DNA of 64,000 bases from Oceanimonas pelagia (GTDB taxonomy: Bacteria; Pseudomonadota; Gammaproteobacteria; Enterobacterales; Aeromonadaceae), in NCBI RefSeq assembly GCF_030849025.1, contig NZ_CP118224.1:1100001-1164000 (forward strand), given 5' to 3'. The first letter of the stretch is position 1. Each line of letters opens with the position of its first letter. This document shows positions 3,356-19,715 of this stretch, in pieces. Made by a program: the position numbers and the translations under genes. A model generated the notes under the pieces. The model ran no database searches, was not told where the DNA came from, and worked only from the letters and a program-made list of their open reading frames with translations.

Positions 3356-4894
3356 ATGGCTACTAAAACCCACAAGCAGCGGCGCGGATTCTTCGGTCTG
3401 TTCAGCGGAAACACTCGCGATTACCAGGCAGAGGATGCGTCGGCGAGCGACATAACACCAGCGGATACCGTGCTCTACGGTGCCGGCATGACCACTGTTG
3501 CCAGCCTGATGGCATCCGGCAACCGGAAGGCCCGCACCCGGCAATCCATCTACGATCAGTGGTCAATGATGGAGGCGGATCCCATTTGTTCATCGGCCCT
3601 TGGCTTGCTGGTCACCGCCGCTCTGGGTGGTCACGAAACCAATGGCGACCTCATTTTCATCGAAAAAAGGCCCGGCTACAGCGACGATGAGCGCCTGCAG
3701 CGGATGGTGGAGGAGATCCGCGAGGACCTGCTCCCCATTTTCAACGGCGCCGCCTTTAACGTTGGCTATCTGGCGGCGGCCTTTGGTGACGCCTATGCCC
3801 GCATTTACAGCGATAAGGGGGTGGGGGTCACCGACCTTTATACCGGCGAGCTGATCCGGCCGCCCCTGGTGCAGCCGTTCGAGCGCGGCAGCCGCACCGT
3901 GGGCTTTGCCGTTTATACCGGTGAGAAGAACTTCCAGCGCCTGAGCAAGACCCAGATGGCCAGAGTGAAAATGCCGCGCACCCAGTGGGTGCCGCAGCAC
4001 GGCGTGTTTGAGAAGTCGATCAAGCTGGCCCTGGAGCAGGACGATATCGATGCCCTGCCGCTGATGCCGGCCATGGCTGGCGGCTCCTTGCTGTACCCGG
4101 CAGAGGAGCCCTACAACAACCTGTCCGCCAGCCTGCTGGGGCTGGTTGGGCAGCGCTGGATCGACTCCATTGACGAGCAGATGCTGACCGTCAACCTCAA
4201 CGAAATGAGCAGGGAACAGCAAAAGCGCTTTCTTGAGAGCATCAAGTCCATGCTCACCAAGTCCAAGGAAGTGGCGGAGCAGGCCGCCAAGGGCGGCAAG
4301 CCGATACTGGAGCGGATCCGGCATATCATTCCGGTGTTCGGTGAAAAGCAGCTGGCGTCCATGCAGGCGCCGAACGGCGGTCAGACTGGTCGCAGCGCCA
4401 ATATCAGCATCGAGGACATTATGCTGCATGCCCGGCTGACCGCCGGTGCCATTGGGGTGGATTTGTCCATGGTGGGTTTTGCCGATCAGCTGGCTGGCGG
4501 CCTAGGCGAGGGTGGCTTCTTCCGAACGTCAGCGCAGGTGGCTGAGCGGGCCAGGGTTATTCGGGTCGCCCTGGCCGACTTCTTCAATCAGGTGATCGAC
4601 GTTCATACCCTGCAGAAGTACGGCGTGGTCTTCCCGGCCAGCGAGCGCCCCTGGTCCATCAACTTCTACGGCTCCATTTCCGCGCTGGAGGCCGAAAAGC
4701 AGCGCACCCGCAGTGAAGGCATGAGCGTGGGCCTGCTGCTGGTGCAGGGCATGCAGCAGCTCAAGGAGCTGGGCGCCGACAAGAAGATGATGATCAACTT
4801 CCTGACCGACATTATGGCGCTGGATGAAGATCAGGCCGAACAGTATGCCGATAACCTGGCCAGGCAGCCGGATGACGATGACAGGGGGCTGTGA
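3356..4894 (+). CDS. Probable phage portal protein
   Basis: This is a 512-residue protein without signal or membrane segments. Its size, position ahead of tail genes, and features such as RQSIYDQWSMMEADPICSSA near the N-terminus fit portal proteins of myovirus-like prophages. Further support is a long helical middle around residues 285-330 and a Gln/Glu-rich C-terminal helix. The start ATG at 3356 follows a 100-bp gap after the zincin gene and has no strong ribosome site. The gene ends in a TGATG overlap with the next. No active-site motif exists for portals, so the call rests on length, context and overall character; another head-tail connector protein is the main alternative. Confidence 0.55.
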   Translation: MATKTHKQRRGFFGLFSGNTRDYQAEDASASDITPADTVLYGAGMTTVASLMASGNRKARTRQSIYDQWSMMEADPICSSALGLLVTAALGGHETNGDLIFIEKRPGYSDDERLQRMVEEIREDLLPIFNGAAFNVGYLAAAFGDAYARIYSDKGVGVTDLYTGELIRPPLVQPFERGSRTVGFAVYTGEKNFQRLSKTQMARVKMPRTQWVPQHGVFEKSIKLALEQDDIDALPLMPAMAGGSLLYPAEEPYNNLSASLLGLVGQRWIDSIDEQMLTVNLNEMSREQQKRFLESIKSMLTKSKEVAEQAAKGGKPILERIRHIIPVFGEKQLASMQAPNGGQTGRSANISIEDIMLHARLTAGAIGVDLSMVGFADQLAGGLGEGGFFRTSAQVAERARVIRVALADFFNQVIDVHTLQKYGVVFPASERPWSINFYGSISALEAEKQRTRSEGMSVGLLLVQGMQQLKELGADKKMMINFLTDIMALDEDQAEQYADNLARQPDDDDRGL

Positions 4895-5802
4895 TGGGGC
4901 TATACAACAACGTGGCCGACAGTCTCGGTCTGCTGGGCGCTGGCAGCCTGCTGGGCAATCTGCAGGGCGCCGTGGGCGGCGGCATCAACAACCTTGGCGG
5001 CAGAGCGGCACAACTTGCCGGGGGCGGCGCGCTGGCCCAGAACCTGGCTGGCCGGGCAACCTCCATCGCCGGATCCATGGCATCCAGCGCCATCAGTAGC
5101 GGGCTGACGCCGGAGTTGCGGCGGGCCATTAATGGCGGCGGCGCGGTTGCCAGCAACCTGCTGGCCGGTAATTTTCAGGACGCGGCCATTACCGCGCTGG
5201 ATGCGGGCCTGGCCGACAGGGTGCTGAGCAGCTTCGGCAGCCGGGCCGGAGCGCAGATGCGATTCTGGCGTAACGGAAACCCTCTGTACGGGGGGATATC
5301 GCCGGGCGAGGCGAGACAGATCCACTCCGAAGCTACCACCACCGGCAAGGCCAAGAAAAACCTGTTCCTGGTCAAGGTCAGCAGCCTGTTGCAGGGCGAC
5401 TTCTCCCGCCAGTTCAACCTTTTTTGCGTGGATATAGAGCACACGCCTTTTATCGTTTCCGGCGACAAGTTCAAGGTCGGCGCGGCGTTCGTGGACATGC
5501 CCAACGCCTCGGAGGTCGACGAGCTCCGCATTACCACCCTGGATGACAAGCGCGGCACCATGAAGCGGTGGTTTGAGGATCACGCCGCTGCCGTGGCGGC
5601 GCGTGACGGCACCGTGGGGGTGCCTGGCCAGTACGCGATTACTTTCACCATCGAACACGCCTTTGTGGGCGAGCTGGGCGGCTTCAAGGGCAAGGGGCTG
5701 TTTCGCCCCGTGAGTTACGACGTGTCGTTGTCCCGGCGCGATGACGCCCTCGAGGAAATCCAGATGACCTTTACCCAAATCGACACCTTCATGGAGCCCT
5801 GA
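4894..5802 (+). CDS. Phage structural protein with tail-tube-like C-terminal domain
   Basis: This is a 302-residue protein. I chose ATG 4894, which overlaps the portal stop as TGATG. The first 110 residues are Gly/Ala-rich low complexity. From about residue 145 a beta-rich domain begins at LFLVKVSSLLQGDFSRQFN. It continues with VSGDKFKVGAAFVDMP, KRGTMKRWFEDHA, and a closing DVSLSRRDDALEEIQMTF. This pattern resembles the tail-tube or baseplate tube-initiator fold of contractile-tailed phages. The location directly before the tape-measure gene supports a role in the tail tube or baseplate hub. The exact role is an inference. Confidence 0.5.
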   Translation: MGLYNNVADSLGLLGAGSLLGNLQGAVGGGINNLGGRAAQLAGGGALAQNLAGRATSIAGSMASSAISSGLTPELRRAINGGGAVASNLLAGNFQDAAITALDAGLADRVLSSFGSRAGAQMRFWRNGNPLYGGISPGEARQIHSEATTTGKAKKNLFLVKVSSLLQGDFSRQFNLFCVDIEHTPFIVSGDKFKVGAAFVDMPNASEVDELRITTLDDKRGTMKRWFEDHAAAVAARDGTVGVPGQYAITFTIEHAFVGELGGFKGKGLFRPVSYDVSLSRRDDALEEIQMTFTQIDTFMEP

Positions 5803-8800
5803 TGATGCTGAAACACGACGAACAGGGCTTTCTTGTCGGGCCCAGAGAGCAAACTGACGAGCTGCTGGACCAGCTCAAGTTGATCCGTGGCGAGCTGGAG
5901 GCCATCAGGGCTACCCTGGGTGATGCCAAGCCACAAGAGGCCGCCACCACTCCGGCGTCGTCGCCGGACGTTCAGCGCCCGCCGGTGGTAACGCCAGGTG
6001 GCAGGCATGGTGGTGAGCCTGGCTCAACCCTGGCCGCCACTGCCGCTCTTGCTCCTGTGGTCGTGCTTCGTCAAGGTGACAGCTATCAGCATGGTGGCGA
6101 CACCCATTTCCGCCAGGGCGACCGGTCGACGTCAAGTTCCATTGCCCTCACCGACCGTCAAACAATCAACCATTCCGCTCCTAGCGCCCGAGAGGCCGCC
6201 ACCACTCCGGCGTCGTCGCCGGACGTTCAGCGCCCGCCGGTGGTAACGCCGATAGGCAGGGTCGGTCCGAAAAGGGATGAAAACGGACGCTTTGTAAAGG
6301 CATCTTCTCCCCAGTCATTTGGCGCCGCTCGAAGTGATCGCGATGAAAAGGGGCGGTTTGTCGGCTCGGGTGATGATGACTCTGCCGCCAACGAGTTGGG
6401 GCTGCGAACGGCTATTGGCGACATGGGAGACCGGATCGCCGGGGCTGTGCACGAAATGGCCCTTAACGAGGAGGCCGACCCGTCGGTTAAGGCCTTCAAT
6501 GAGGTGGCTCAGCCGCTCAGCCGCGGCTTCAGCAAGATTTTTGGCGGAGAGGGCGACAAGGGGCAGGAGCGCTGGTTTCGCCGGATATGGCGTCAAATGC
6601 GCGAGTCCCGGGAGGCTGGGCGCCAGGAGAGCAAGCAGACCATTACCCTGCTGGAGGATATCGAGAAGCAGCAGGGCGGTAAGGATCGCAGCGGTGGCGG
6701 CTGGTTTGCGCTAGCCCTGGCTCCCGCCATGGTGCTTCTGCGCGCCATCCTGACTGCGTTGCTGCCCATGGCGCTGCTGAAGCGACTACCGGCCTGGCTG
6801 ACTGGAATCGGCGCCGGTAAGGGCGGCCCCGGGGCAGGAAAGTGGGCACCTGGTCGCGCTGGGGGTGGCGCGGCAGCGGGTGCGACAGGAGCGGCTTCTG
6901 CCGGTGCCGGCCGGCCTGGAGCCCCTGACGCTCGCGGCGCCGGTTCGAAACCGGGCATGCTGCGTCGCGCCGGGCGGTTTGCCCGCCGAGTGCCGGTATT
7001 GGGCAGCCTGATCGGGCTTGGCTACATGGCCAGCGATATCTACAGCTCCGAGTCCAGTAACGATTCACGGCAGCAGAAGGATGTGTCCACAGGCGCGGCC
7101 ATTGGTCGCGGTACTGGTGCGCTGGGTGGCGCCATGGCCGGCGGCGCTGCCGGCGCGGCATTGGGCTCTGTGGTGCCGGTGGTGGGCAACATAGTTGGCG
7201 GCATTGTGGGTGCTGCCGTCGGTGCCTGGCTGGGTGAGTCTGCCGGTGAGGTAATTGGCGCTCAGTTCGGCTCCTGGGTGGCAGATCTGCGCGACTCCAA
7301 CTTCGTGCAGGGCATGTCCGATGCCTGGCGCACCATGACGCTGTTCACCGGCCACCTGTGGGGGCAGGTGAGCGGTGCTGTGGGTGAGCTCTGGGGCGCC
7401 ATGTCGGAAACCGTGGGGGCAGCCTGGAGCAGCGTATCCTCCACAGTGTCCAGCGCCTGGCTGGCCACGTCAGACGCTGTATCCGCCACTTGGGATGGCA
7501 TTGCTGGAGCGATAACGAGCACTTGGGATAGCGCCGTTGGCGTGATGACGTCGGCCTGGGATAGTGTGACCAGCAAGCTGGAAGGGTGGTGGGATTCCAT
7601 TTCCGAGGCCGGCCAAAAGGTTAATGACTGGATTAAGGAAAAAACCGGCATTGACGTTAAGGAGACTGCCACTGCCGTCTATGACAGCACCGCCAGCGCC
7701 CTAAAGGAAGCGGGCGGGAATGCGTGGAGCTTCGTTAAAAAGTCAGCGTCCACGGTGGGCGAGGCCACCGGCGTATCCAAGGCGTACCGCGCCATCAAGC
7801 GCAGCGCCAATTACGCGAAAAACCGCAGCGCCCTTGAAAAGCAGATGGCAGCATCCGGCATTACCGACCCCGCCGAGCAGGCCATGTTCATGGCGCAGAT
7901 GGATCATGAGTCCGGCGGTATGACCAGCCTGGAAGAGAGCTTCAACTACCGCAACGCCGATCGCCTGATGGCGGTCAGCGCCACCGCCAGAAAGAAGGGT
8001 CCGAAAGCCGTGCAGGCAGCCATAGATCAGGGCCCGGAGGCGGTGGCTGAGCTGATGTATGGCGGGCGCATGGGTAACACCGAGCCCGGTGACGGCTACA
8101 AGTTTCGCGGACGCGGCTTCACCCAGCTCACTGGGCGAAACAACTACGAAGCGGCCAGCAAGGATCTGGGTATCGACCTGGTTAATAACCCGGACATGGC
8201 GGCAGACCCGGAGGTGGCGGCCAAGATTGCCACTTGGTACTGGCAGCAGCGCCCCGGCCTGTCAGACGCCGCCAAGCGTGGCGATGTGGAGGAGGTCACC
8301 CGCAAGATTAACGGTGGCACCAATGGTCTGGCCGATCGCAAGGCCAAAACCGAGCAGTACCTGGCCGAATATCGGGATAGACCGATAGCGCCCACATCCA
8401 AACCTGAGGCGGTGGCCTTGGCGCAAGTTGACGCGCCTGCCAGGGCAACAAACAGCATCACTCGCCGGGAAATCACAGATCCTGCCGAAAAGGCGGCGGC
8501 ACTTGCTGAGCTGGAGCGGGATCTGGCGTGGATGAATGAGTCCATGGGGCATGGCGGCGAGGTTACACCAGAAGGCCTGGCCGGCATGACCAGCCCCAAT
8601 GTTGCGCCGGCCGCCCGGGTGCCCGATAGCAACCTGAGCCAGATCCTGCTTCCGCCGGTATCGACCAGCGTGGATGCCGCTCGTCTGCCACCGATGGCTA
8701 TGGGCGTCATGGCGCCCGCAGCGCCGCCCGCCGTGGCGGCCGCGCCTAACCTTACAGTGCCATTGCGCGACAATGCCAAGCCCAAGGCTTCACGCCCGCC

Positions 8801-8873
8801 GCAGGACGTTTCCCGTGACCTGCCCGATCGCCAGATCGCCCACATCGTCACCGGCGCCTACGCCGCGATGTAA
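5802..8873 (+). CDS. Tail tape-measure-like protein with GH19 lysozyme domain
   Basis: This 1,023-residue protein overlaps the previous stop (TGATG). The N-terminal quarter is unstructured and contains a duplicated 20-residue segment encoded by a 60-bp direct repeat at 5936-5995 and 6191-6250. Residues 330-480 are Gly/Ala-rich and hydrophobic. Residues 510-610 carry spaced tryptophans (AWSSV, AWLAT, TWDGI, TWDSA, AWDSV) like tape-measure repeats. Residues 680-860 match a GH19 chitinase/lysozyme-type domain, with MDHESGG (Glu703 the likely acid), FRGRGFTQLTGR and INGGTNGL. The enzyme would cut peptidoglycan while the tail penetrates the envelope. The last 150 residues are Pro/Ala-rich. Confidence 0.7.
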   Translation: MMLKHDEQGFLVGPREQTDELLDQLKLIRGELEAIRATLGDAKPQEAATTPASSPDVQRPPVVTPGGRHGGEPGSTLAATAALAPVVVLRQGDSYQHGGDTHFRQGDRSTSSSIALTDRQTINHSAPSAREAATTPASSPDVQRPPVVTPIGRVGPKRDENGRFVKASSPQSFGAARSDRDEKGRFVGSGDDDSAANELGLRTAIGDMGDRIAGAVHEMALNEEADPSVKAFNEVAQPLSRGFSKIFGGEGDKGQERWFRRIWRQMRESREAGRQESKQTITLLEDIEKQQGGKDRSGGGWFALALAPAMVLLRAILTALLPMALLKRLPAWLTGIGAGKGGPGAGKWAPGRAGGGAAAGATGAASAGAGRPGAPDARGAGSKPGMLRRAGRFARRVPVLGSLIGLGYMASDIYSSESSNDSRQQKDVSTGAAIGRGTGALGGAMAGGAAGAALGSVVPVVGNIVGGIVGAAVGAWLGESAGEVIGAQFGSWVADLRDSNFVQGMSDAWRTMTLFTGHLWGQVSGAVGELWGAMSETVGAAWSSVSSTVSSAWLATSDAVSATWDGIAGAITSTWDSAVGVMTSAWDSVTSKLEGWWDSISEAGQKVNDWIKEKTGIDVKETATAVYDSTASALKEAGGNAWSFVKKSASTVGEATGVSKAYRAIKRSANYAKNRSALEKQMAASGITDPAEQAMFMAQMDHESGGMTSLEESFNYRNADRLMAVSATARKKGPKAVQAAIDQGPEAVAELMYGGRMGNTEPGDGYKFRGRGFTQLTGRNNYEAASKDLGIDLVNNPDMAADPEVAAKIATWYWQQRPGLSDAAKRGDVEEVTRKINGGTNGLADRKAKTEQYLAEYRDRPIAPTSKPEAVALAQVDAPARATNSITRREITDPAEKAAALAELERDLAWMNESMGHGGEVTPEGLAGMTSPNVAPAARVPDSNLSQILLPPVSTSVDAARLPPMAMGVMAPAAPPAVAAAPNLTVPLRDNAKPKASRPPQDVSRDLPDRQIAHIVTGAYAAM
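5936..6250 (+). repeat. 60-bp perfect direct repeat pair inside the tape-measure-like gene
   Basis: Positions 5936-5995 and 6191-6250 are identical over 60 bp. Both copies are in frame and encode the same 20 residues, containing TTPASSPDVQRPPVV. The two copies are separated by 195 bp, a multiple of three, so loss or gain of a unit would preserve the reading frame. The flanks differ immediately outside the repeat. Confidence 0.95.
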
Positions 8874-8915: not shown

Positions 8916-9218
8916 ATGCAAATCATGAAAACACTTACCGGCGAAGAGCTTGAAGGCATGGTTGAGCACTGGCTGAGTACCCCGGTTAACGGGTACCTGG
9001 GCAGTGACTACGGCCAAGATGCCAAATCCATCCTGCAGCTGCCTCATACCGATGAGGCGGCCGACGAACTTATTCGCAAGCTGAGGCAGGACATCATCAT
9101 CACCACGTCCCTGCCGGCCGGCGCCGTCTCCCTGTATGGGGTGCCGAGCGGCGTTGATCGCTTCGATATTGTGCTGGAGGTCGCCGGGCGAACCTTTGAC
9201 CTATCAGGGGGCAACTGA
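8916..9218 (+). CDS. Small phage baseplate or tail protein, possibly wedge-like
   Basis: This 100-residue protein overlaps the following baseplate gene by TGATG. The sequence contains GYLGSDYGQD near the N-terminus, a helix around DEAADELIRKLRQDI, and a beta-rich end (DRFDIVLEVAGRTFDLS). Its position directly before a J-like baseplate gene is where gp25/W-type wedge proteins usually lie in contractile-tailed phages. The length is close to that family, but I do not see its diagnostic motifs clearly, so this remains a positional call. Confidence 0.45.
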   Translation: MQIMKTLTGEELEGMVEHWLSTPVNGYLGSDYGQDAKSILQLPHTDEAADELIRKLRQDIIITTSLPAGAVSLYGVPSGVDRFDIVLEVAGRTFDLSGGN

Positions 9219-10714
9219 TGTATACCCGCGATCAATTCATCCAGATGGCGATAGAGGCCAGCCAGGCGAAATATCCGGCCGTGGCTGCCCTGATCAAAGC
9301 CGGCGACCCCCGCATCCTGCAGCAGATAGAGGCCCAGGCCACCATGCTGGCGATGTACTCCCAGCAGCTGGAGGTGGCCCAGTCCGAGCCCTTTGAGAAG
9401 ACTCGGGACAGCACCGTTCTGGCCGATGCCGCCATGCGCGGCCTGGTGCCGAAATCACGGCCGGCCACGGTGCAGGTGATCGCCGAAAACAAGTCCGGAG
9501 CGCCATTCATCATTGCCGCCGGCCGCTACCTGATGGATCCCCAGGGGCGGTCGCTGCGGGTTGAAGCGCCGGTAGAGATACCCGCCGGCGGCAGTGGACT
9601 GTTCCGCGCCGTGCAGCTGTACGAGCGGGAGGTTGCCCACACGGTCAGCGGCTCGCGCCCATTTTACGCCATTCAGATCAGCATGGCCGACGATGACGCC
9701 TCCCTGTGCGGCTTGTCCGTGGCCGACGGATCTGGTGCGTACGAATATCGTGAGCGGTACGTCAATACCCGTGAAGGGGAGCGCATCTACCATGTGGAGG
9801 CGGACGAACGGCAGCGGGTTTATGTGCGCTTTGGTCAGGATGGCGTAGTGGGCACTCAGCCCACTGACGGCACCGAAATCACCATCAACGCCCTTTACTC
9901 ACTGGGTGACGTGGAGTTCTCTGCCGGCGCCCTGCTGGTGTTTGAGACCATGCAGGATCCCGCTGAGGCCATGGTGGAAATGCGCCTTGACGAGGTGCTG
10001 GTGAAAGGCCAGAACCCGCCATCTATGCGCACCCTGCGCGAACTGGCCAAGTACCCCAGCGTCTACAACCACAACGCCGTGTTTCTGGGCGAATTCGACT
10101 TTCTGATCCGGCGCAACTTTCCCGACCTGCAATTCCTTTCAGTGTGGAACGAGGGGGTGGAAGAGTCGGTGCGTGGCATGAGTCTGGACAACATCAACGC
10201 CCTTTTTGTTGCCTGCCTGTCCGGGCTGGGTGGCGAGCCGGTGCTGAGCGAGGCGAAAGGTGAAACGGTCGCTCCGGTGAAACTGACCGAGCTGACCGCC
10301 ACCCAGGAGCAAATCAAGGCTAAGGTCGGGCTGGCCGACGACAGCTACCGAGTCTATTTCTACACCCCCATTCGCTCAGAGATAGAAATCAGGATACAGG
10401 CCACAGTGGCCACGTCCTATGAAGAGCAGGTGGTGCAGGAGCAGATAACCAAGGTCATGCTGGATCATTTCGGGGAGGCTGCGCCCCAGTCCCGGCGCGG
10501 ACAGTCCACCCCTCTCTATCAGCAGGTTTACCAGATCCTGAGGCGTGAGGTGCCTGCGCTGAGCGTGGGCAGGGCTGATCTCAAGGTCTACATCGATGAG
10601 TCGATCGATACCGACTCCCGCCCTGAGTTGTGGCGCTATGTGTCACCGGATTCCCTGCTAGTGAGTGTCGTCGCTGGCAACGTGACCACGCCGTATTGGG
10701 GATCCGGGTTATGA
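9218..10714 (+). CDS. Phage baseplate protein, J-like (wedge)
   Basis: This is a 498-residue protein. The N-terminal helix is followed by a segment with TRDSTVLADAAMRGLVPKSRP and alternating beta strands. The C-terminal part has DDSYRVYFYTPIRSEIEI and QVYQILRREVPALSVGRADLKVYID. The combination resembles Mu gp47/P2 J-type baseplate proteins, which form the wedge arms linking hub to tail fibres. It overlaps the upstream gene (TGATG) and the downstream gene (ATGA), indicating translational coupling in a baseplate-assembly block. The family assignment is from pattern recognition. Confidence 0.55.
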   Translation: MYTRDQFIQMAIEASQAKYPAVAALIKAGDPRILQQIEAQATMLAMYSQQLEVAQSEPFEKTRDSTVLADAAMRGLVPKSRPATVQVIAENKSGAPFIIAAGRYLMDPQGRSLRVEAPVEIPAGGSGLFRAVQLYEREVAHTVSGSRPFYAIQISMADDDASLCGLSVADGSGAYEYRERYVNTREGERIYHVEADERQRVYVRFGQDGVVGTQPTDGTEITINALYSLGDVEFSAGALLVFETMQDPAEAMVEMRLDEVLVKGQNPPSMRTLRELAKYPSVYNHNAVFLGEFDFLIRRNFPDLQFLSVWNEGVEESVRGMSLDNINALFVACLSGLGGEPVLSEAKGETVAPVKLTELTATQEQIKAKVGLADDSYRVYFYTPIRSEIEIRIQATVATSYEEQVVQEQITKVMLDHFGEAAPQSRRGQSTPLYQQVYQILRREVPALSVGRADLKVYIDESIDTDSRPELWRYVSPDSLLVSVVAGNVTTPYWGSGL

Positions 10715-12697: not shown

Positions 12698-13081
12698 ATG
12701 GCGGAAGCCGTAACACTGCTGTCGTACCGGCGCCGGCTTGCAGCCCAAGCTGCGGGCGGGGCGGCGGTACCCAAAATCGCATTCATGGCGTTCGGTGATG
12801 GTGGGCACAACCCCGCCACCAATCGCGCCATCGCTCCCGATGAGAACCAGACCTCGCTAAATCATGAGCTGCTGCGCAAACCCCTGGCGGCTGTTGCTCA
12901 GGAGGATTTGCTGTCGGTCACCGGCCGGGGTTTCCTGGAGAACGGCGAGCTGATTGGCAAGTCGATCTCGGAAGCTGCCCTGGTCGATGAGAAGGGCAAC
13001 ATCATGGGGATCAAGAACTTCGCTCCGAAGGTGAAGGAATCCGACGAGCGGTACGAAATTTCCATCAAGATGAGGTACTGA
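12698..13081 (+). CDS. Small tail-fibre-associated protein
   Basis: This 127-residue protein has a GAGGA ribosome site. The segment AVPKIAFMAFGDGGHN followed by Asn/Pro-rich sequence resembles the N-terminal tail-attachment domain of tail-collar fibre proteins, here encoded as a separate short gene. It would connect a fibre to the baseplate. It is followed two bases later by a larger fibre-like gene. Confidence 0.5.
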   Translation: MAEAVTLLSYRRRLAAQAAGGAAVPKIAFMAFGDGGHNPATNRAIAPDENQTSLNHELLRKPLAAVAQEDLLSVTGRGFLENGELIGKSISEAALVDEKGNIMGIKNFAPKVKESDERYEISIKMRY

Positions 13082-13082
13082 C

Positions 13083-14003
13083 ATGCCGATCCCGCATCCC
13101 AATATCACTCCCATCCCGAACAATGAGCCGGATGCCGTACCCGGCCTCTGGAACGTTCGGTACGAGGAGATCGACCAAAACTTCAAGAACATTGATGACC
13201 GCACCAGCGCCAACGAGCAGGAATTGTCCGGCGCACGCGGCGGTAAGGCAAGCATAGGCGCGCGCCTGACTGAAATGTCCGAGCAGCTCAATCAGATGTC
13301 GCCCGAGTTTCAGGATGTACTGGCGGCCATGGCAGCCATGGCACTGGATCAGGCCGGCGTTGCTAACCATTCGGTCAAAGCGCTCAGGCGTCACATTCAG
13401 CAGGAGGGCGAAATCACCCTGCGCAACCGGGGCGTAGTCGCCGGATGCACCTGCGTCAAGTCCACCACTGCCACCCGCAACCTTAACCTGGCTGGCGGGC
13501 AGGTGTTCATGAATGGTCGCATGTACCGGGCGCCGGACGCGACCAACGCCGCATCCGTGCCGCCTAACACCGGATCCGGCAACGTAACGGTGCGGGCCTA
13601 CCTGTACTTTCACTCCGGCAGCCAGACCATGCGCCTGGCGGTGACCAATATCGGGGAGGAGCTGCCGACCGGTGCTATCCACCTCTACAACATCACCATT
13701 CCGCCGAACTCCACCGATGCGACGGATCCCCAGCTGACCAATGTCACCCTGACCAGCGTTCGCCGGGTGGAAGCGTCCTATCCCCGCACCATCAACAACC
13801 CAGTGGCGCACGCGGTAGCCATTGAAGCCCTTTCCAAGGCCGACTATCGCCTGGACGTGGACGTGGTGTCGTTCAGCGGTGGTCATTGCAGTCCCGATCA
13901 AGTCCTGGTCAGCAGCCGCGCGACCAACGGTTTTACCCTTGAGCTCGCCAGCGAAGTGGACAACGTGGTCCTGCGCTGGCGGGTCAGCAAACTGAATAAC
14001 TGA
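13083..14003 (+). CDS. Probable phage tail-fibre protein
   Basis: This is a 306-residue protein. The first 110 residues are helical, with a coiled-coil-like stretch (RLTEMSEQLNQMSPEFQDVL). After about residue 115 the sequence becomes beta-rich with repeated short strands (TATRNLNLAGGQVFMNGRMY, GNVTVRAYLYFHSG). This layout, an N-terminal helical attachment followed by a beta shaft, is typical of tail fibres. The neighbours support it: a fibre-adaptor gene comes before and the DGR variable protein two genes later. No enzymatic domain was seen. Confidence 0.5.
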   Translation: MPIPHPNITPIPNNEPDAVPGLWNVRYEEIDQNFKNIDDRTSANEQELSGARGGKASIGARLTEMSEQLNQMSPEFQDVLAAMAAMALDQAGVANHSVKALRRHIQQEGEITLRNRGVVAGCTCVKSTTATRNLNLAGGQVFMNGRMYRAPDATNAASVPPNTGSGNVTVRAYLYFHSGSQTMRLAVTNIGEELPTGAIHLYNITIPPNSTDATDPQLTNVTLTSVRRVEASYPRTINNPVAHAVAIEALSKADYRLDVDVVSFSGGHCSPDQVLVSSRATNGFTLELASEVDNVVLRWRVSKLNN

Positions 14004-14013
14004 GGAGAGCAAG

Positions 14014-14349
14014 ATGCCCCAAATCAATCTTAAGCAATCCGGTTCGCCGGTCGCCGACTTTGCGGTTTCCGGCAACATGGTCACCGTGGCTGGGCTGTCC
14101 ATTGACTGCGCCGCCCGCCAGGAAGACACCGCTGTCACCATCGAGATCCGCGCTCATAAGGGCGAAGTGGTCGAGGGTGGCCAGGACGGCGCTTATCTGG
14201 CCCACATCCACATTCCGGCCCGTACCTATACCGAAGTGCCCGCCGAAGGCGGTGAAGAGGGATTGGATGGCGAGCAGCCCCAGTCCGAGCGTGTAGCGGA
14301 CCCTCTGGACCACAATGCAGTCGTTGTGACCCTGTGGCCTGTCGCCTAA
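14014..14349 (+). CDS. Small phage structural protein beside DGR target
   Basis: This is a 111-residue acidic protein with no membrane segments. It has a beta-rich start (INLKQSGSPVADFAVSGNMV) and a Glu/Gly-rich linker near residue 80. I do not recognise the family. It lies 10 bp after the fibre gene behind GAGGAG and 23 bp before the DGR variable protein, so it is probably a fibre or receptor-binding accessory made together with the variable protein. Confidence 0.5.
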   Translation: MPQINLKQSGSPVADFAVSGNMVTVAGLSIDCAARQEDTAVTIEIRAHKGEVVEGGQDGAYLAHIHIPARTYTEVPAEGGEEGLDGEQPQSERVADPLDHNAVVVTLWPVA

Positions 14350-14372
14350 CCATCTGACAACAAGGAGCAATC

Positions 14373-15425
14373 ATGCCTTCTATCTATAACCGCGACAGCC
14401 TCCGGGCCAACGTCGAAGCCGCCACCGGCGGCAAGATCACCGTGCTGTACACCGCCAAGGGGCAGCCCTCTTACATGCACGTTGTGTCCGCCTTTAATGC
14501 GGATGACGTCGAGCCCGGCCTGGCCGCTGGCCTGCACCCCATGTTCATGACCAACGGTCAGGCCAAAACCGAGCGCTTTATCGGTGCCTACCCGGGCGTG
14601 GTTCGAAATGGTGAGCTGATCTCCCTGCCCGGCGAAGACCCGGCCGCCAGCGCCAACTTCGATACCTTCCTGGCTCAGGCGCGGGCCAACGGACCCGGCT
14701 GGGGCCTGATGACCAACATGGACTGGTCCGGCCTGGGCCTGTGGTGCCGCAAGAACGGCTTTGTCCCGCGTGGCAACACCAACTACGGCAAGAGTTCGGA
14801 TGCCCCCTGGGAGACCGGTGTGCGTGGTGACGGCGGCCTGCCCGGCAACACCTCCGGCATCGCCCGCACCCAAGCCGGCTCAGGCCCCACCTCCTGGCGT
14901 CACGACAACACCCATGCCGGCATTGCCGATCTGGTTGGTAACGTGTGGGAGTGGTCACCCGGTCTGCGCCTGGTGGATGGCGAGATCCAGGTTATCGCCG
15001 ACAACAACGCGGCCAGCAGCACCATCGACCTGAGCGCAGCCAGCTCGGAGTGGCGCGCCATCGACGGCGCCACCGGCGCCCTGGTAACCCCCGGCTCCGC
15101 CAACACCGTCAAGATTGCCAGCTCCGGCACCGCTGCCTATACCCTGGTGGCCAGCTCCGGCGGCGCCTTCCAGTCCATGACCAACCCCGGCACCACGCCG
15201 GTGGCGGAAGCGGCGCTGAAGGTGCTGAAGCTGCACGGCATTTACCCGGTCGGCGCCGATCTGGGTGGTGACGGCATCTGGTTCACTCTTGACGGCGAGC
15301 GCGTCCCTTATCGCGGCGGCGTTTGGAACTACGGCGAGCGCGCTGGCGTCTTCGCGGTCAACCTCTACTACGCCCGCTCGAACGTGAACGCGAGCATCGG
15401 CGCGCGCCCCGCTTTCTCACTTTAA
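14373..15425 (+). CDS. DGR variable protein: C-type-lectin/FGE-fold receptor-binding tail protein
   Basis: This 350-residue protein has an AAGGAG site. It contains the formylglycine-generating-enzyme-like motif GNVWEW (residues 189-194), which marks the C-type lectin fold used by many DGR targets. The last 35 codons are the variable repeat. Compared with the template-encoded sequence, residues 317, 320, 332, 333, 340 and 341 differ: Asn to Val, Tyr, Tyr and Tyr, Thr to Ala, and Asn to Ser. These sites map to the extreme C-terminus, where the known DGR lectin fold displays its ligand-binding loop. It is the last gene of the tail-fibre block, so it is most likely the host-receptor-binding tip, comparable in role to Bordetella phage Mtd. 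Confidence 0.9.
   Translation: MPSIYNRDSLRANVEAATGGKITVLYTAKGQPSYMHVVSAFNADDVEPGLAAGLHPMFMTNGQAKTERFIGAYPGVVRNGELISLPGEDPAASANFDTFLAQARANGPGWGLMTNMDWSGLGLWCRKNGFVPRGNTNYGKSSDAPWETGVRGDGGLPGNTSGIARTQAGSGPTSWRHDNTHAGIADLVGNVWEWSPGLRLVDGEIQVIADNNAASSTIDLSAASSEWRAIDGATGALVTPGSANTVKIASSGTAAYTLVASSGGAFQSMTNPGTTPVAEAALKVLKLHGIYPVGADLGGDGIWFTLDGERVPYRGGVWNYGERAGVFAVNLYYARSNVNASIGARPAFSL
15299..15413 (+). repeat. DGR variable repeat (VR)
   Basis: The 115 bp align without gaps to the template repeat at 16017-16131. Seven differences are seen, at 15321, 15322, 15330, 15366, 15369, 15390 and 15394. Each corresponds to an A in the template: four A to T and three A to G. Identity stops abruptly on both sides. 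The last 16 bp (15398-15413) are GC-rich and identical, as expected for the site where mutagenic homing initiates. Confidence 0.95.
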
Positions 15426-15447
15426 TTCTGGCGCTTTTTTATTCGTT

Positions 15448-15476
15448 GGGGTGGGCGATAGCCCGCCCCTTCTTTT
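15448..15476 (+). terminator. Hairpin 34 bp after the VR: terminator and possible DGR cruciform
   Basis: The arms GGGGTGGGC (15448-15456) and GCCCGCCCC (15461-15469) flank a GATA tetraloop and are followed by a T-rich tract. As RNA this is a rho-independent terminator for the tail-fibre operon, with one G-U pair. In the Bordetella phage DGR a short GC hairpin just behind the VR promotes target recognition, and this hairpin sits in the same place. Confidence 0.65.
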
Positions 15477-15511
15477 TGGGATAACGAAACTGGTTAAGGT
15501 TTGATCGATCC

Positions 15512-15988
15512 GTGACAAGAAAAACAAGATCAGCAGCGACAGAGCCTCACTTTCAACGCAGTCAGAGCAAGGGCGAAAAGACCACGCAAATTCAGGCAGA
15601 TCACCACTTCCTGCCCCTGGGTCAAAAGTGCGAGGACATGATCCATCTGGCCCTTGATGCCATCGACAGAATGCCGAGGGCGCAGAAACCGGTTATCGGC
15701 AAGCAAATAGAAGATTCCATGTGGCAGCTGCTGGAGCTGGTTACCCGCGCCGGCCGGCGCTTTCACAAGAGCACCACCCTGGAAGATGCGGTGATTGCCC
15801 TCGACATGCTCCGCGCCAAGGTGCGCCGGGCGCACAAGCGCAACCTGATTTCCCACGGCATGTACCGGGAGTGGGCCCGGCAAAACGACAGCATAGGCCG
15901 CGACCTGGGCGCTTGGTACAAGCATGAGAGGGAGAAAAAAGGGACTCAAAGGAAAACCACACCAAGCACCCGGGCCGAGGCGGGATAA
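15512..15988 (+). CDS. avd: DGR accessory variability determinant (Avd-like four-helix protein)
   Basis: This 158-residue, strongly basic protein has a GTG start; the start is uncertain, with a weak AAGGT site upstream. Residues 35-145 form long amphipathic helices (EDMIHLALDAIDRMP, EDSMWQLLELVTRAGRRFH, ALDMLRAKVRRAHK, REWARQNDSIGRDLGAW). This is the pattern of the Avd four-helix bundle, which forms a pentameric barrel, binds the reverse transcriptase and template RNA, and is required for mutagenic retrohoming. The gene lies between the VR-containing gene and the TR, the same order as in Bordetella phage BPP-1. The ends are low-complexity and probably disordered. Confidence 0.75.
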   Translation: MTRKTRSAATEPHFQRSQSKGEKTTQIQADHHFLPLGQKCEDMIHLALDAIDRMPRAQKPVIGKQIEDSMWQLLELVTRAGRRFHKSTTLEDAVIALDMLRAKVRRAHKRNLISHGMYREWARQNDSIGRDLGAWYKHEREKKGTQRKTTPSTRAEAG

Positions 15989-16305
15989 ATTGACTTCAGG
16001 GTCATACGGCAATCAGGCGCGTCCCTTATCGCGGCGGCAATTGGAACAACGGCGAGCGCGCTGGCGTCTTCGCGGTCAACCTCAACAACGCCCGCTCGAA
16101 CGTGAACACGAACATCGGCGCGCGCCCCGCTCTTGAAATAAAAGGCCAGCATCGGCGGCTTACGGGCCGGCCCGACAGTGCCGAATCAAAAGGACGTGTG
16201 ATCCCCGGCAGAGGCCGAAATACTCAACAGGCGGGACATTCCAGTAGCAGCAGCGACCGTTTGCTCCCGCCGCCACCCCCATAACAACGATAAGAAGCAC
16301 GGGCC
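15989..16305 (+). ncRNA. DGR template RNA region (non-coding, contains TR)
   Basis: The 317-bp gap between avd and the reverse transcriptase has no convincing gene. It holds the template repeat at 16017-16131 and about 175 bp of spacer. In studied DGRs the TR plus the flanking spacer is transcribed and both parts are needed for cDNA priming. The RNA ends given here are simply the gene boundaries; a distinct promoter was not identified. Confidence 0.65.
16017..16131 (+). repeat. DGR template repeat (TR)
   Basis: This is the 115-bp partner of the VR at an offset of 718 bp. It contains 22 adenines, many of them in AAC or AAT triplets when read in the VR frame, the codon choice known from other DGRs because adenine mutagenesis at AAY reaches many residues. 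Seven of these adenines differ in the VR and no other base does. The TR is not inside a credible reading frame. Confidence 0.95.
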
Positions 16306-17472
16306 ATGGCCAGGACGTATAACAACCTTTATCCGCAAATTTACGACTTCAACAACCTGCTTTCCGCTTACCACAAGGCCCGCAAGGGCAAGCGCAGCCG
16401 CAACGAGGTGATGCGCTTCCACTACGACTATGAGGGCAACCTCATTGATATTCAGAATCACCTGATGTGGGGATCCTGGCGAACCGGTGAATACCGGCAC
16501 TTTACCCTGTACGAGCCGGTATATCGTGTTGGTGCGGCCCTGCCGTTCCGTGACAGGGTGTTACACCACGCCCTGGTGGACGTGATTAACCCCTGCTTTG
16601 AGCGCAGCTTCATCACCAACACCTATGCCTGCATCAAGGGGCGCGGCACTCACGTTGGTGCCGACAGAGCTCAGGCCATGCTGCGCAAGGTGAAGCGGGA
16701 GCATGGTGTGGTGTATGTGTTCAAGGGCGACATATCCGGCTACTTCTACAACATCAACCATGCCATTCTGCGGGCGATCATTCGACGCCGAATAAGCTGC
16801 CAGCGGACCCTGGCTTTGATTGATGAAATCATTGCCTCCAGCGCAGATCCGGACGATATTAACCCAACCGGCATTCCCCTGGGAAACCTGACGTCGCAGC
16901 TGTTCGCCAACATCTACCTGGCTGAGCTGGACAACTTCGTCAAGCATGTGCTGCGCGAGCCAAATTACATGAGGTATATGGATGACTTCTGCATCGTCCA
17001 TCACGACAAAGAGCACCTGCATCACGTTCGGCGCCAGGTAGAGGCGTTCCTGGCTGACACGCTGCAGCTCAAGACCAACCGCAAGACCCAGGTATTCCCG
17101 GTGGACACCCAGAGTGGTCGCGCGCTCGACTTTCTCGGCTACCGAATGTGGCCCACCCACAGAAAACTCAGAAAAAGCTCCATCAGCCGTATTTGCCGAA
17201 GCCTCAAGCGCCTGCAGAAAATGTATGCCCGGGGCGAAATCGACCTAGAGGACGTGCGCCCGGTGGTACACAGCTGGCTGGCTCACGCCAAGCATGCCGA
17301 CACCCATGGCCTGCAGCGGAAAATCCTGGCCACCTTCCCGATGATTCGGGGGCAATATGGACCCATACACGACACCGGCGAGGAGTTCTATTTCGATGAG
17401 CACGCTGCAAGCCATGAGCCACAGCCTGATTGCTCTGACCATACAGGCTGCTGGCTTGATAGTCCTTGGTGA
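16306..17472 (+). CDS. DGR reverse transcriptase
   Basis: This is a 388-residue retron/DGR-type reverse transcriptase. The catalytic aspartates are Asp142 in FKGDISGYFYNI (motif A) and Asp226-Asp227 in RYMDDF (motif C). Motif B reads GIPLGNLTSQ (189-198). The SQ ending, instead of the SP of group II introns, is typical of DGR enzymes. Fingers and palm start at about residue 60, and a basic thumb follows residue 255 (RKTQVFPVDT, FLGYRMWPTHRKLRKSS). The enzyme copies the TR RNA with errors at adenines, and the cDNA replaces the VR. It starts 174 bp after the TR. Its C-terminal tail overlaps the start of the next gene. Confidence 0.95.
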   Translation: MARTYNNLYPQIYDFNNLLSAYHKARKGKRSRNEVMRFHYDYEGNLIDIQNHLMWGSWRTGEYRHFTLYEPVYRVGAALPFRDRVLHHALVDVINPCFERSFITNTYACIKGRGTHVGADRAQAMLRKVKREHGVVYVFKGDISGYFYNINHAILRAIIRRRISCQRTLALIDEIIASSADPDDINPTGIPLGNLTSQLFANIYLAELDNFVKHVLREPNYMRYMDDFCIVHHDKEHLHHVRRQVEAFLADTLQLKTNRKTQVFPVDTQSGRALDFLGYRMWPTHRKLRKSSISRICRSLKRLQKMYARGEIDLEDVRPVVHSWLAHAKHADTHGLQRKILATFPMIRGQYGPIHDTGEEFYFDEHAASHEPQPDCSDHTGCWLDSPW

Positions 17473-17698
17473 CCCGCTCCCCGGGGCCCTGGCTGGTATC
17501 GCTTTCTTCCTTGGTCGGGAAATAACCCAGGCCGAGTACCGTCACATATCCAGCCTGCCGGTGCCGAAGCGGGAGCGCATGCCCATGTGGGGCGGACTGG
17601 ATCCCAGGTACTGGAACAAAAAGGCGTTCACCGATGTTTTGTATCCCGCTCTGGCGGTGTCGGCGGGGTGCGCAATCCACTATCTCGGGGCCACCTGA
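17396..17698 (+). CDS. Small phage membrane protein, possible holin
   Basis: I chose ATG 17396, preceded by GAGGAG; it overlaps the reverse transcriptase end. The product is about 100 residues. The N-terminal segment (LIALTIQAAGLIVLGDPLPGALAGIAFFLG) is hydrophobic. A basic, Pro-rich middle follows (PVPKRERMPMWGG), then a short second hydrophobic stretch at the C-terminus (VLYPALAVSAGCAIHYL). Size, topology and position at the end of the late genes fit a holin or lysis-associated membrane protein. The family is not firmly recognised. Confidence 0.45.
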   Translation: MSTLQAMSHSLIALTIQAAGLIVLGDPLPGALAGIAFFLGREITQAEYRHISSLPVPKRERMPMWGGLDPRYWNKKAFTDVLYPALAVSAGCAIHYLGAT

Positions 17699-17713
17699 TT
17701 TCTGGGAGGTTTT

Positions 17714-17737
17714 GACCGGCTTCGGCCGGTCTTTTTT
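17714..17737 (+). terminator. Rho-independent terminator after phage late operon
   Basis: The stem GACCGGC / GCCGGTC with a TTCG tetraloop is followed by six T residues. It ends the plus-strand DGR/holin transcript and faces the 3' end of the repressor gene. Confidence 0.9.
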
Positions 17738-18074
17738 ATGGCCTGCTGATGCCAGCCAGGTCAAAGATGAGGTTCATGACTGCGTTCCGCTCTCGCTGCG
17801 ACAGGGTGCTGGCAGCCGCCGCGATATCGCCGGCCGTTACCGGCTGATACTTGAGCATGGCCACCGAAACGTCCATGTCGGTCATGTTCAGGGCATGAAT
17901 GAAGCGCCGATACTGGCTCAGCGTCATGTCACTCTCTCCGTTTTCGATTCTTTGCACCGTTCTGGCCGAAATGCCCGTTTTTTGAGCTATCTCCGCCTGT
18001 GACAGGGAGAGTTCTTGTCGGCGCCGTTTGAGCACCAAGACGATAGGATCCGGCAAATGCTTCAACCTCAACAA
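17736..18074 (-). CDS. XRE-family transcriptional regulator, likely phage repressor
   Basis: This 112-residue protein has a helix-turn-helix at about residues 20-70 (LSLSQAEIAQKTGISARTVQRIENGE, a classic Cro/CI-type helix pair). The only in-frame starts near the domain are TTG codons (18074 or the next codon), so the start is uncertain. It lies convergent to the late operon and divergent from the small gene at 18221, as lysogeny switches often do. A short C-terminal segment rather than a peptidase domain follows, so it is not a LexA-like cleavable repressor. Confidence 0.75.
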   Translation of the reverse strand: MLRLKHLPDPIVLVLKRRRQELSLSQAEIAQKTGISARTVQRIENGESDMTLSQYRRFIHALNMTDMDVSVAMLKYQPVTAGDIAAAASTLSQRERNAVMNLIFDLAGISRP

Positions 18075-18086
18075 GACAACATTGAC

Positions 18087-18099
18087 GTGAAATTTTCAC
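18087..18099. promoter_or_regulatory. Candidate repressor operator upstream of the XRE gene
   Basis: GTGAAATTTTCAC is a perfect interrupted palindrome 12 bp upstream of the repressor start, followed at once by a half-site repeat TTTCAC. The location is right for autoregulation and for control of the divergent gene. This is an inference from symmetry and position only. Confidence 0.4.
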
Positions 18100-18220
18100 T
18101 TTCACGACACTTGTGGCGCATTTATCCCGATACCCTTTCCAACCGGTGGAAAGCACTTCTGATTTTTGATTATTATCGTTTTGCGATTCACGCAACGCTA
18201 ATTAAAACAATGAATTAGGG

Positions 18221-18436
18221 ATGAAAATTGTGCAAAGTTGTAACCTATCAGCGGCCGCCATTAAAACAACAAAAATTGATATTTCGGCTGTTTGCACCCA
18301 CCAGATCAACGTGATGGCCAGGCTGCTGTGCCATGGAATTTCGGACGGCATAGTAAATCACAGCGACATACAAACGGCGTTGACCGTCATCATGGAGAAG
18401 AGTGATGCTGCACTTGCTGCCATGAGCGAAGTTTAG
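18221..18436 (+). CDS. Small hypothetical phage protein
   Basis: This is a 71-residue protein divergent from the repressor and followed by a clear terminator. It is mostly helical, contains two cysteines in the first half (QSCN, SAVCTHQ), and has no recognisable domain. Given its position it could be a Cro-like or early regulatory protein or a small antirepressor, but the sequence itself does not say so. A weak TAGGG ribosome site precedes the ATG. Confidence 0.45.
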   Translation: MKIVQSCNLSAAAIKTTKIDISAVCTHQINVMARLLCHGISDGIVNHSDIQTALTVIMEKSDAALAAMSEV

Positions 18437-18440
18437 TCTG

Positions 18441-18465
18441 AGCCGGGCCCTGAGCCCGGCTTTTT
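18441..18465 (+). terminator. Rho-independent terminator after 18221-18436
   Basis: The stem GCCGGGC / GCCCGGC with a CCTGA loop and five T residues lies directly behind the small gene's stop codon. Confidence 0.9.
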
Positions 18466-18653
18466 AGTGGGCCATTAAAAATTCAAAGGGTGATCTTTTG
18501 GGCGGTAGTGGTATGCGTTTAGCCTTGGGGCAATTTTGGGGCAATTTTGGGGCAAAATTAGAGGTGGAATGAGGGGATATGCGGGGGTGATTAAAAATTG
18601 AATGGGGTTGAAATCAAGCTGTGGCGCCGCTCTGGCGCTGGTTTTCGAGGGTT
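18466..18653. other. Probable right end of prophage (att region) with TTGGGGCAA repeats
   Basis: This stretch has no gene. It holds three copies of TTGGGGCAA at 18525, 18536 and 18547, spaced exactly 11 bp apart, and a GC hairpin near 18623-18638. Base composition changes from AT-rich phage-like to GC-rich chromosomal sequence near 18655. Regularly phased direct repeats near a prophage end are often arm-type binding sites of a recombinase. The attachment core cannot be fixed without the left end. Confidence 0.45.
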
Positions 18654-19106
18654 TCAGTGAAATGAAGTCGCGTAGTTACAGTATTCGTTGTTGACCGCCA
18701 GAATGGCGGTGGTGTCGTCGAGGGCAAAGAAGCTCATGCCGTCGTTGTTGTCGCCGAACTGGCCGGCCTGGGCGTCGGCGCTGTTGCCGGACTCGTTGAA
18801 CTCGGGCACGGTGCCAAACAGGGCGTCGCCCCAGGACACCAGCCGCTCCACCCTGTAGCCTTTGGGCACGGTAATGGTATCGGCGGTGCTGGCGGGTACG
18901 GCCTCAAAGCCCAGCAGCGGGCTGCCCTGGGTGGCGGCGGCCACGGCCCGGGAAAGGGGAGAGGCGGCAAAAAAGGCGGCGGCACCGAGGGCGGCGGCGC
19001 CACCGAGAAAACGACGGCGGCTCAGGCTTTTTTCCACCAGTTGGGTAAACTCGGGAACCTGATTGCGGGGGTGGTTCTGCTCGTCCTGACGTTCAAAGCG
19101 ACTCAT
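18654..19106 (-). pseudogene. PhoX-type (DUF839) phosphatase, 5' fragment cut by prophage
   Basis: Only the first 150 residues remain. They contain a twin-arginine signal (SRRRFLGGAAALGAAAFF) and the conserved start of the PhoX fold (PKGYRVERLVSWGDALFG, GQFGDNNDGMSFFALD, AVNNEYCNY). Whole PhoX-family proteins are several hundred residues long and end far downstream of this point. The homologous sequence stops at CNY and the frame ends after four more codons, where the prophage begins. The remaining 3' part is expected on the other side of the prophage. PhoX enzymes are calcium/iron-dependent periplasmic phosphatases, so the lysogen probably lacks this activity. Confidence 0.75.
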
Positions 19107-19228
19107 GGTTGATTATCCTTTGCTCACGGCGTATTGGAATTTTGCAGGCCCATGCTGACGGCTCAGGATGACGGTTTGATAACGGCAGGATGACAGGAAA
19201 AAGACAGTCAGAGAGGAGGAACAGCACA

Positions 19229-19250
19229 AAGGCAGCCCGACGGCTGCCTT
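19229..19250 (-). terminator. Hairpin terminator after glycine-zipper gene
   Basis: The stem AAGGCAGCC / GGCTGCCTT with a four-base loop lies 16 bp past the stop of the minus-strand gene at 19266. The following T-tract is short. Confidence 0.6.
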
Positions 19251-19265
19251 GATGTGGCGGAACAC

Positions 19266-19715
19266 TCAGTCATCCCAGTCGTCATCGTCCCAGTCGTGAC
19301 GATGGCGGTGTTTGCGGTGTTTGCCATGATAGTGGTGATGCACTTCCCGGTGACCGTCACCGGAGCGGGCCCCCAGGGCCGAGCCGGCGGCACCGCCTAC
19401 GCCGGCGCCGATCAGCTGGCCGCTGTCACCGCCCACGTTTTTGCCCAGTGCCGCACCGCCCAGGGCACCCACGGCACCCCCCAGGGCGGCTTCGTTCTTG
19501 TTGCCCCGGTTGGCGGTGGCGGCGCCGCCGGCGGCGCCGCCCAGGGCGGCCCCCACCAGGGCGCCGGTGTCGCCGGCCATCTGCTTGCCGATCAGGGCAC
19601 CGGCGGCACCGCCGGCGCCGCCGCCGAGAATGGTGTTGAGGGTTTCACCGGCCATGGCCGACTGAATGCCGAACAGCATCGGCAACATCAGAATTGCAAG
19701 GGTCTTTTTAAGCAT
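19266..19715 (-). CDS. Glycine-zipper envelope protein with His/Asp-rich tail
   Basis: I chose ATG 19715 because it opens a standard Sec signal peptide (LKKTLAILMLPMLFGIQSAMA). The mature part contains repeated GxxxG-rich segments (GGGAGGAAGALIGKQ, GAALGGAAGGAAT, GGAVGALGGAALG, GAGVGGAAGSALGA), the glycine-zipper pattern of outer-membrane or periplasmic membrane-associated proteins. The last 30 residues are very rich in His and then Asp/Trp (HHHYHGKHRKHRHRH, DWDDDDWDD), suggesting metal binding. The protein has 149 residues. The function is not known. Confidence 0.7.
   Translation of the reverse strand: MLKKTLAILMLPMLFGIQSAMAGETLNTILGGGAGGAAGALIGKQMAGDTGALVGAALGGAAGGAATANRGNKNEAALGGAVGALGGAALGKNVGGDSGQLIGAGVGGAAGSALGARSGDGHREVHHHYHGKHRKHRHRHDWDDDDWDD

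Follow-up and report, generated by a model that had tools for sequence, protein, structure and literature searches.

Does the reverse transcriptase (RT) gene at the end of a tail gene block in the Oceanimonas pelagia chromosome belong to a complete diversity-generating retroelement (DGR), and which protein would such an element diversify? The window analyzed here is a stretch of 64,000 nucleotides whose position 1 is genome position 1,100,001 of NZ_CP118224.1, the one contig of a 3,592,406-bp genome. The first-pass annotation of this DNA had placed all four DGR parts in canonical order in a prophage tail module, and all four were found within window positions 14373-17472 on the plus strand: a target gene with a variable repeat (VR), an avd gene, a template repeat (TR) and the RT gene. 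Judged from its sequence, the cassette is almost certainly a complete phage DGR, apparently intact and with all reading frames open, and it is very probable that it acts in a prophage to diversify a receptor-binding protein at the phage tail tip. Its parts are as follows.

14373..15425, plus strand: target (variable) gene, 350 aa, predicted C-type lectin/formylglycine-generating enzyme (CLec/FGE)-type DGR variable protein; phrog_2889 (E 3.6e-126)
15299..15413, plus strand: VR, 115 nt, 3' end of the target gene; from repeat finding and comparison with the TR
15512..15988, plus strand: accessory gene avd, 158 aa, start GTG in the mechanical list of open reading frames (ORFs); PF22296, phrog_3206
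16017..16131, plus strand: TR, 115 nt; from repeat finding and comparison with the VR
16306..17472, plus strand: DGR reverse transcriptase, 388 aa, motifs IPLGNLTSQ and YMDD; phrog_1423 (E 1.3e-135)

The TR/VR pair and the target site

TR and VR form the longest direct repeat listed in 13000-18500 (115 nt at 94% in the repeat finder). They differ at seven of 115 positions, and all seven mismatches face adenines of the TR, which has 22 (hypergeometric P = 3.9e-6). At the protein level, six residues are changed (N to V, three cases of N to Y, one T to A and one N to S), and no stop codon arises. Only 12 nt separate the end of the VR from the end of the target ORF, and the VR thus lies at the 3' end of the putative CLec-fold gene. 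When the VR stretch was searched against the genome (E <= 0.001), the VR itself and the TR were the sole matches, and a second target gene was rejected on this ground. A second DGR in the genome was rejected as well, because the sole further RT match (at 1254260, 26%) scored above the cut-off for a group II RT.

Phage DGR target sites are described as carrying a hairpin with a stem of 7-10 bp and a GRNA loop, 4-34 bp from the VR, a rule derived from BPP-1 and with VHML among the examples (PMC3240598). Two features of the window bear comparison with such a site.

15398..15413, plus strand: G+C-rich VR 3' end, 15 of 16 bases G or C, read by eye
15448..15469, plus strand: hairpin/cruciform element with a GATA loop on a 9-bp stem (one G-T), 34 bp past the VR

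The hairpin at 15448-15469 reads GGGGTGGGC-GATA-GCCCGCCCC and agrees with the published rule in stem (9 bp), loop (GATA) and distance (+34) (PMC3240598); in a shuffling control, two of 200 shuffles of the stretch folded equally well. No stem of at least 6 bp was found within 130 bp after the window TR. In BPP-1 the initiation of mutagenic homing (IMH) site at the VR end comprises (GC)14 and a 21-bp element; the G+C-rich end of the window VR is placed like (GC)14 and may, by analogy, have its function (cf. PMC3240598). Across the 33 loci for which a TR/VR pair was kept (see below), the best stem after the VR has a four-base GRNA loop in 30, and in 29 of those it lies at +32 to +37. In the other three, L007, L015 (Bise) and L058 (BPP-1), the best stem has no such loop; in L058 our stem scan did not rank the published hairpin as best. 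Stems of at least 6 bp also follow the TR in 29 of the 33 loci, with a GRNA loop in none of the best ones. No known RNA family reached its gathering score in 13000-19500.

The reverse transcriptase and Avd

The RT contains IPLGNLTSQ and YMDD, which we take to be the DGR-type SQ motif and the catalytic motif, respectively, in agreement with the earlier reading of an SQ-type motif B with an intact YMDD. Its best match among solved structures was 8ub7 (E 5.3e-62, titled 'Reverse transcriptase'), presumably the BPP-1 RT, with group II RTs at 1e-17 or weaker. In the first-pass annotation, a grouping of the RT with retrons or group II introns had been named as evidence against an active DGR. We built a tree of 35 RTs comprising that of the window, 26 related RTs (among them the published phages BPP-1, VHML, ACA1, BalMu-1 and YPCBV-1), five group II RTs over the TIGR04416 cut-off and three 'retron-like' RTs, a loose label, as the NF038233 cut-off was reached in none of 23 genomes and L070 shows neither motif in the motif search. 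The group II and the retron-like rows each fell on one side of a branch with 100/99 support, and the window RT was in neither; the outgroups were chosen by family model, and the program gave a long-branch warning that blurs their placement. The smallest well-supported sets that include the window RT (up to 100/100) contain L051, L052 and L056, and the five published DGR rows lie on one side of a weakly supported branch (52/81). The product of the accessory gene, of a type that many but not all DGRs carry, was recognized by PF22296 bAvd (E 1.8e-19, above cut-off) and by phrog_3206 'Avd protein of DGR' (E 1.4e-31); against solved structures it gave no match at E 0.1.

The target protein

The target matches phrog_2889 over nearly its full length. 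It has no Pfam family at E 0.001, and its sub-threshold match to FGE-sulfatase (E 0.091) recurs in all 16 aligned homologues, target included, at E up to 1 (best 1.3e-6). A profile of the 16 homologues matched 5vf4 over the whole length (E 3.1e-118) when searched against solved structures. Foldseek with an AlphaFold2 model of the target returned three 5vf4 chains as the sole matches below E 0.001 (E 4.5e-28, TM-score normalized to the query, TMq, 0.78). According to its title, 5vf4 is the Thermus aquaticus variable protein (TaqVP) from a DGR; TaqVP is a full-length homologue of the window target and differs in host. The CLec/FGE-type fold proposed earlier for the variable gene was thus recovered by profile and by Foldseek, and the assignment of the target as a CLec/FGE-type variable protein related to TaqVP is supported. 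As the model is of modest quality, the claim for the fold is based chiefly on the sequence profile. The target follows a baseplate gene, a collar-fiber-like gene and small genes, an order kept in L051, L052 and L056, and its product is most likely the receptor-binding protein at the tip of the phage tail.

In the mechanism that we propose, the TR region would be transcribed, and RT and Avd would make a cDNA with random bases where the TR has adenines. The VR at the 3' end of the gene would then be exchanged for this cDNA, with the TR left as it was; the site would be recognized through the GATA hairpin downstream and the G+C-rich end of the VR. The product would be a CLec/FGE-type protein with varying loop residues, located at the phage tail tip as receptor-binding protein. 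In this scheme, transcription, mutagenic homing in this strain, virion location and receptor binding are inferred.

The prophage

The cassette closes the tail gene block of an integrated prophage of about 66.5 kb, delimited by 23-bp direct repeats at genome 1052125-1052147 and window 18671-18693 (66.5 kb apart), with an integrase gene beside the left repeat (Phage_integrase match at genome 1052290-1052868), phage genes between the repeats and a split host gene around them. Pieces of one PhoX gene stand outside both repeats (profile positions 70-515 on the left and 2-90 on the right), which places the prophage inside phoX. The gene content includes RecT, an HTH/S24 repressor-type gene, an antirepressor, terminase-like genes, sheath, portal, endolysin and baseplate. 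The prophage tail-module location given in the first-pass annotation stands, with the target after the baseplate and collar-fiber-like genes.

3356..4894, plus strand: portal protein; phrog_1497 (E 1.9e-163), 64% to Rb1 and 26% to P1 Prt
9218..10714, plus strand: baseplate protein; phrog_1369 (E 7.3e-100), 52% to the Rb1 baseplate wedge protein
12698..13081, plus strand: tail-collar-fiber N-terminal-like gene; phrog_1780 (E 1.5e-11), Pfam Phage_tail_fib 22.1 bits (cut-off 23)
18671..18693, no strand: right 23-bp repeat, attR candidate; partner copy at genome 1052125-1052147

The host gene interrupted by the prophage encodes a PhoX-type alkaline phosphatase, now in two minus-strand pieces about 66 kb apart (window 18639-19106 and genome 1050755-1052155). 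A genome-wide search (E <= 0.001) gave no further PhoX match, and since the sole PhoX gene is split, the lysogen may lack an alkaline phosphatase of this type.

Related loci and VR diversity in nature

The RT search matched 152 of 50,697 phage records, 22 viral-contig loci and six genome loci, and the target search added two viral contigs (L051 and L053). Within the host family, at E <= 1e-40, the RT was found in two of 75 genomes, the window genome and G070, the latter with two copies (75% and 37%). A looser search gave RT matches in two of 23 genomes of the genus; the second, in G015 (E 1e-20), exceeded the TIGR04416 cut-off as a group II RT and was rejected as a sister DGR locus on that ground.

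The TR/VR scan covered 41 sequences, of which 33 were kept. No pair was obtained in L008, L032, L048, L050, L057 and L060, and the pairs in L003 and L014 were dropped as false (no A bias), the true pairs there having been missed by the finder. L029 was omitted from the pooled count as the same contig as L052. In the resulting 32 loci, the VR differs from the TR at 375 of 781 TR adenines against nine of 2868 other positions, a contrast that is biased upward because the finder admits only pairs with few non-A seed mismatches.

Comparison between loci depends less on this bias because VR is set against VR. We compared 18 hand-picked pairs from the 33 loci, ungapped, over 750 bp upstream, 300 bp downstream, TR and VR; six of the 18 had more than 450 differences in the 750 upstream positions, where an insertion shift is likely, and three had no upstream sequence. 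L044 and L046 showed no difference upstream, downstream or in the TR and 13 differences in the VR, every one at a TR adenine. In L037/L038, with one difference upstream and none downstream, 12 of 13 VR differences fell at TR adenines. L049 and L052, whose targets are 71-72% identical to the window target, differ at 13 of 750 upstream positions, at none of 300 downstream and at four in the TR; 15 of their 18 VR differences are at shared TR adenines. Idiomarina-type pairs had more differences throughout. Loci with near-identical flanks and a VR changed at TR adenines show that this cassette family diversifies its VR in nature; this holds for the relatives, and for the strain at hand it is predicted. 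The VR diversity sought by the first-pass annotation in related strains was thus observed at homologous loci.

The second DGR-type RT locus of G070 (L057, G070:C11:518000-530000) yielded no TR/VR pair, unlike L056. Homologues of target, avd and RT are present there, with the RT motifs IPIGNLLSQ and YVDD, and the pair was possibly missed because the finder took the plus strand as fetched and the locus is on the minus strand. Klebsiella phage KPN N98 (L060) carries a 41% target homologue after its tail genes; no TR/VR pair was found in the 11-kb stretch scanned, and an RT is not annotated there. The target gene may accordingly occur without a nearby DGR.

Weighing of the alternatives

Several observations weigh against the proposal of a complete prophage DGR acting on a tail-tip receptor-binding protein. 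The NCBIfam model DivGenRetAVD scored 78.4 bits for Avd, 1.6 under its cut-off of 80. The AlphaFold2 model of the target has a mean predicted local distance difference test (pLDDT) score of 64.1, with residues 315-341, most of the variable part, below 50, and the role of the target as receptor-binding protein is read from gene position and homology. No near-identical sister locus was found, and an exact 30-mer of the TR/VR repeat had no match in the viral contigs. The VR is changed at seven of 22 TR adenines, fewer than in 30 of the 32 other loci with a pair (L007 has seven and L045 five), and the last homing event may therefore be old or partial. This small number of changes is also what a DGR that had lost its activity in the resident prophage, leaving an old VR, would display, and such losses do occur, as the frameshifted RT in the ACA prophage copy illustrates (PMC10612066). 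We consider a relic of this kind unlikely, however, given that all reading frames are open, the RT motifs, TR, hairpin and G+C-rich end are present, and the integrase gene and both 23-bp repeats are retained.

Rather than a tail receptor-binding protein, the target of a working DGR could be a protein made by the lysogen that benefits the host. DGRs with cell-surface targets are common in cells (PMC8144416), and kinship to TaqVP does not fix a role. Such a function is improbable in view of the gene order (baseplate, collar-fiber-like gene, small genes, target) and of the homologues that end tail modules in ACA1 (annotated antireceptor), Bise, VHML and KPN N98. The possibility that the locus is no DGR, and that a retron, group II intron or defense RT happens to stand next to a chance repeat, draws on the NCBIfam and PADLOC scans, in which the RT matched group II, defense-associated RT (DRT) and retron models. 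All NCBIfam models listed were below cut-off (TIGR04416 120.8 bits vs 300), and the best PADLOC match, obtained without cut-offs, was a general RT model (E 3e-42). An RT of these other classes was rejected by the tree, the SQ motif and the best structure 8ub7; together with Avd and the A-only TR/VR pair, these refute the absence of a DGR, to which we assign a negligible chance.

Comparison with known DGRs

The anatomy of the cassette is that of the textbook phage DGR of the BPP-1/VHML type, and both the kind of element and the type of cassette are already known. BPP-1 has the order mtd with VR, bbp7 (which we take to be avd), TR and brt, and its RT is 38% identical to that of the window; it differs in its phage backbone and in Mtd, which the window target does not match by sequence (no Bordetella record among 54 matches). 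ACA1 and ACA2 of Pseudoalteromonas and VHML and VP585 of Vibrio are 34-39% identical in the target and 41-50% in the RT. VHML has a TR/VR pair with eight changes, all at A, and a GRNA hairpin; its stretch gave no match to Avd. In the deposited VHML record (L016), the RT match is split over two separate reading frames, 7717-8634 and 8346-8729, and the gene thus appears interrupted. In ACA1, too, the target is followed by avd, the RT and a small gene (PMC10612066). The ACA phages differ in being P2-like and in translating the TR as an RT extension (PMC10612066), whereas the open RT frame of the window (392 aa) stops short of the TR. Chromohalobacter phage YPCBV-1 likewise combines a SUMF1-like gene, Avd and an RT 41.5% identical to ours, and differs in being Mu-like (PMC9769972); its TR/VR pair gave 15 changes at A and none elsewhere in our scan. 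A survey of over 30,000 DGRs describes three mainly phage clades that apparently vary attachment proteins (PMC8144416).

The portal, baseplate and sheath proteins of the window are nearest to those of Xanthomonas phage Rb1 (64%, 52% and 60%), with ABMM1 next for all three. D6 and P1 were matched by portal and baseplate alone (P1 portal 26%, BplA 23.5%); in the sheath search no P1 record appeared, Rb1 and ABMM1 being the sole matches. Rb1 differs from the window phage in the DGR, since its whole 91,478-bp record has no match to the window RT. The same portal type and a DGR occur together in viral contig L051 (portal 85%, RT 81%). In G070, portal (72%) and DGR RT (75%) lie about 11 kb apart on one contig, with baseplate and fiber genes in the same order.

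P1 varies its fibers by the Cin invertase. No serine recombinase for fiber inversion was found in the prophage, and the one PF00239 match of the genome, at 897586, is outside it. We give even weight for and against the proposal that an Rb1/P1-related lineage (the window phage, a prophage in G070 of another genus in the host family, and viral contig L051) varies its receptor-binding protein by a DGR in place of P1-type recombinase-driven fiber inversion, the DGR having been acquired once the lineage had parted from Rb1, or else lost by Rb1; that it replaced a fiber-inversion switch is a conjecture. If true, this would be the first DGR described in an Rb1/P1-related phage lineage. None was found in the open-licence PMC papers searched, but large surveys may well include one without comment. 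The first-pass remark that no described DGR of this phage type was known in this host group says more than can be shown, homologous cassettes having been published (ACA1/ACA2, YPCBV-1, BPP-1 and VHML); for Rb1/P1-related phages, none was found in those papers. Published DGR phages with this cassette belong to other phage types. The phage background is the less usual part, and the locus is a further complete DGR, here on an Rb1/P1-related backbone in a prophage whose ends are clear. The presence of homologous cassettes in P2-like (ACA1), Mu-like (YPCBV-1) and the present phage suggests that target, avd, TR and RT travel as a unit between unrelated tail modules. As a phage without the RT, Rb1 is a natural reference for asking how a DGR benefits its carrier.

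Other genes of the prophage

A 1023-aa protein (window 5802-8873) matches tape measure families and, at residues 609-913, the endolysin family phrog_181; it is a candidate tail-associated lysin. A phosphoadenosine phosphosulfate reductase-type gene follows the terminase-like genes (L012:18120-19034, genome 1078120-1079034; phrog_33262, E 4.5e-96). Two small genes adjoin the cassette.

14014..14349, plus strand: small gene directly 5' of the target; phrog_8734 (E 1.7e-17), kept beside the target in the nearest relatives
17357..17698, plus strand: small gene, out of frame with the RT whose end it overlaps; phrog_1443 (E 1.5e-22), function not assigned

A tblastn search with the gene at 17357-17698 gave no match in 20 loci. 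A small gene also stands 3' of the RT in VHML, ACA1 and BalMu-1 (called holin in BalMu-1), a likeness of position.

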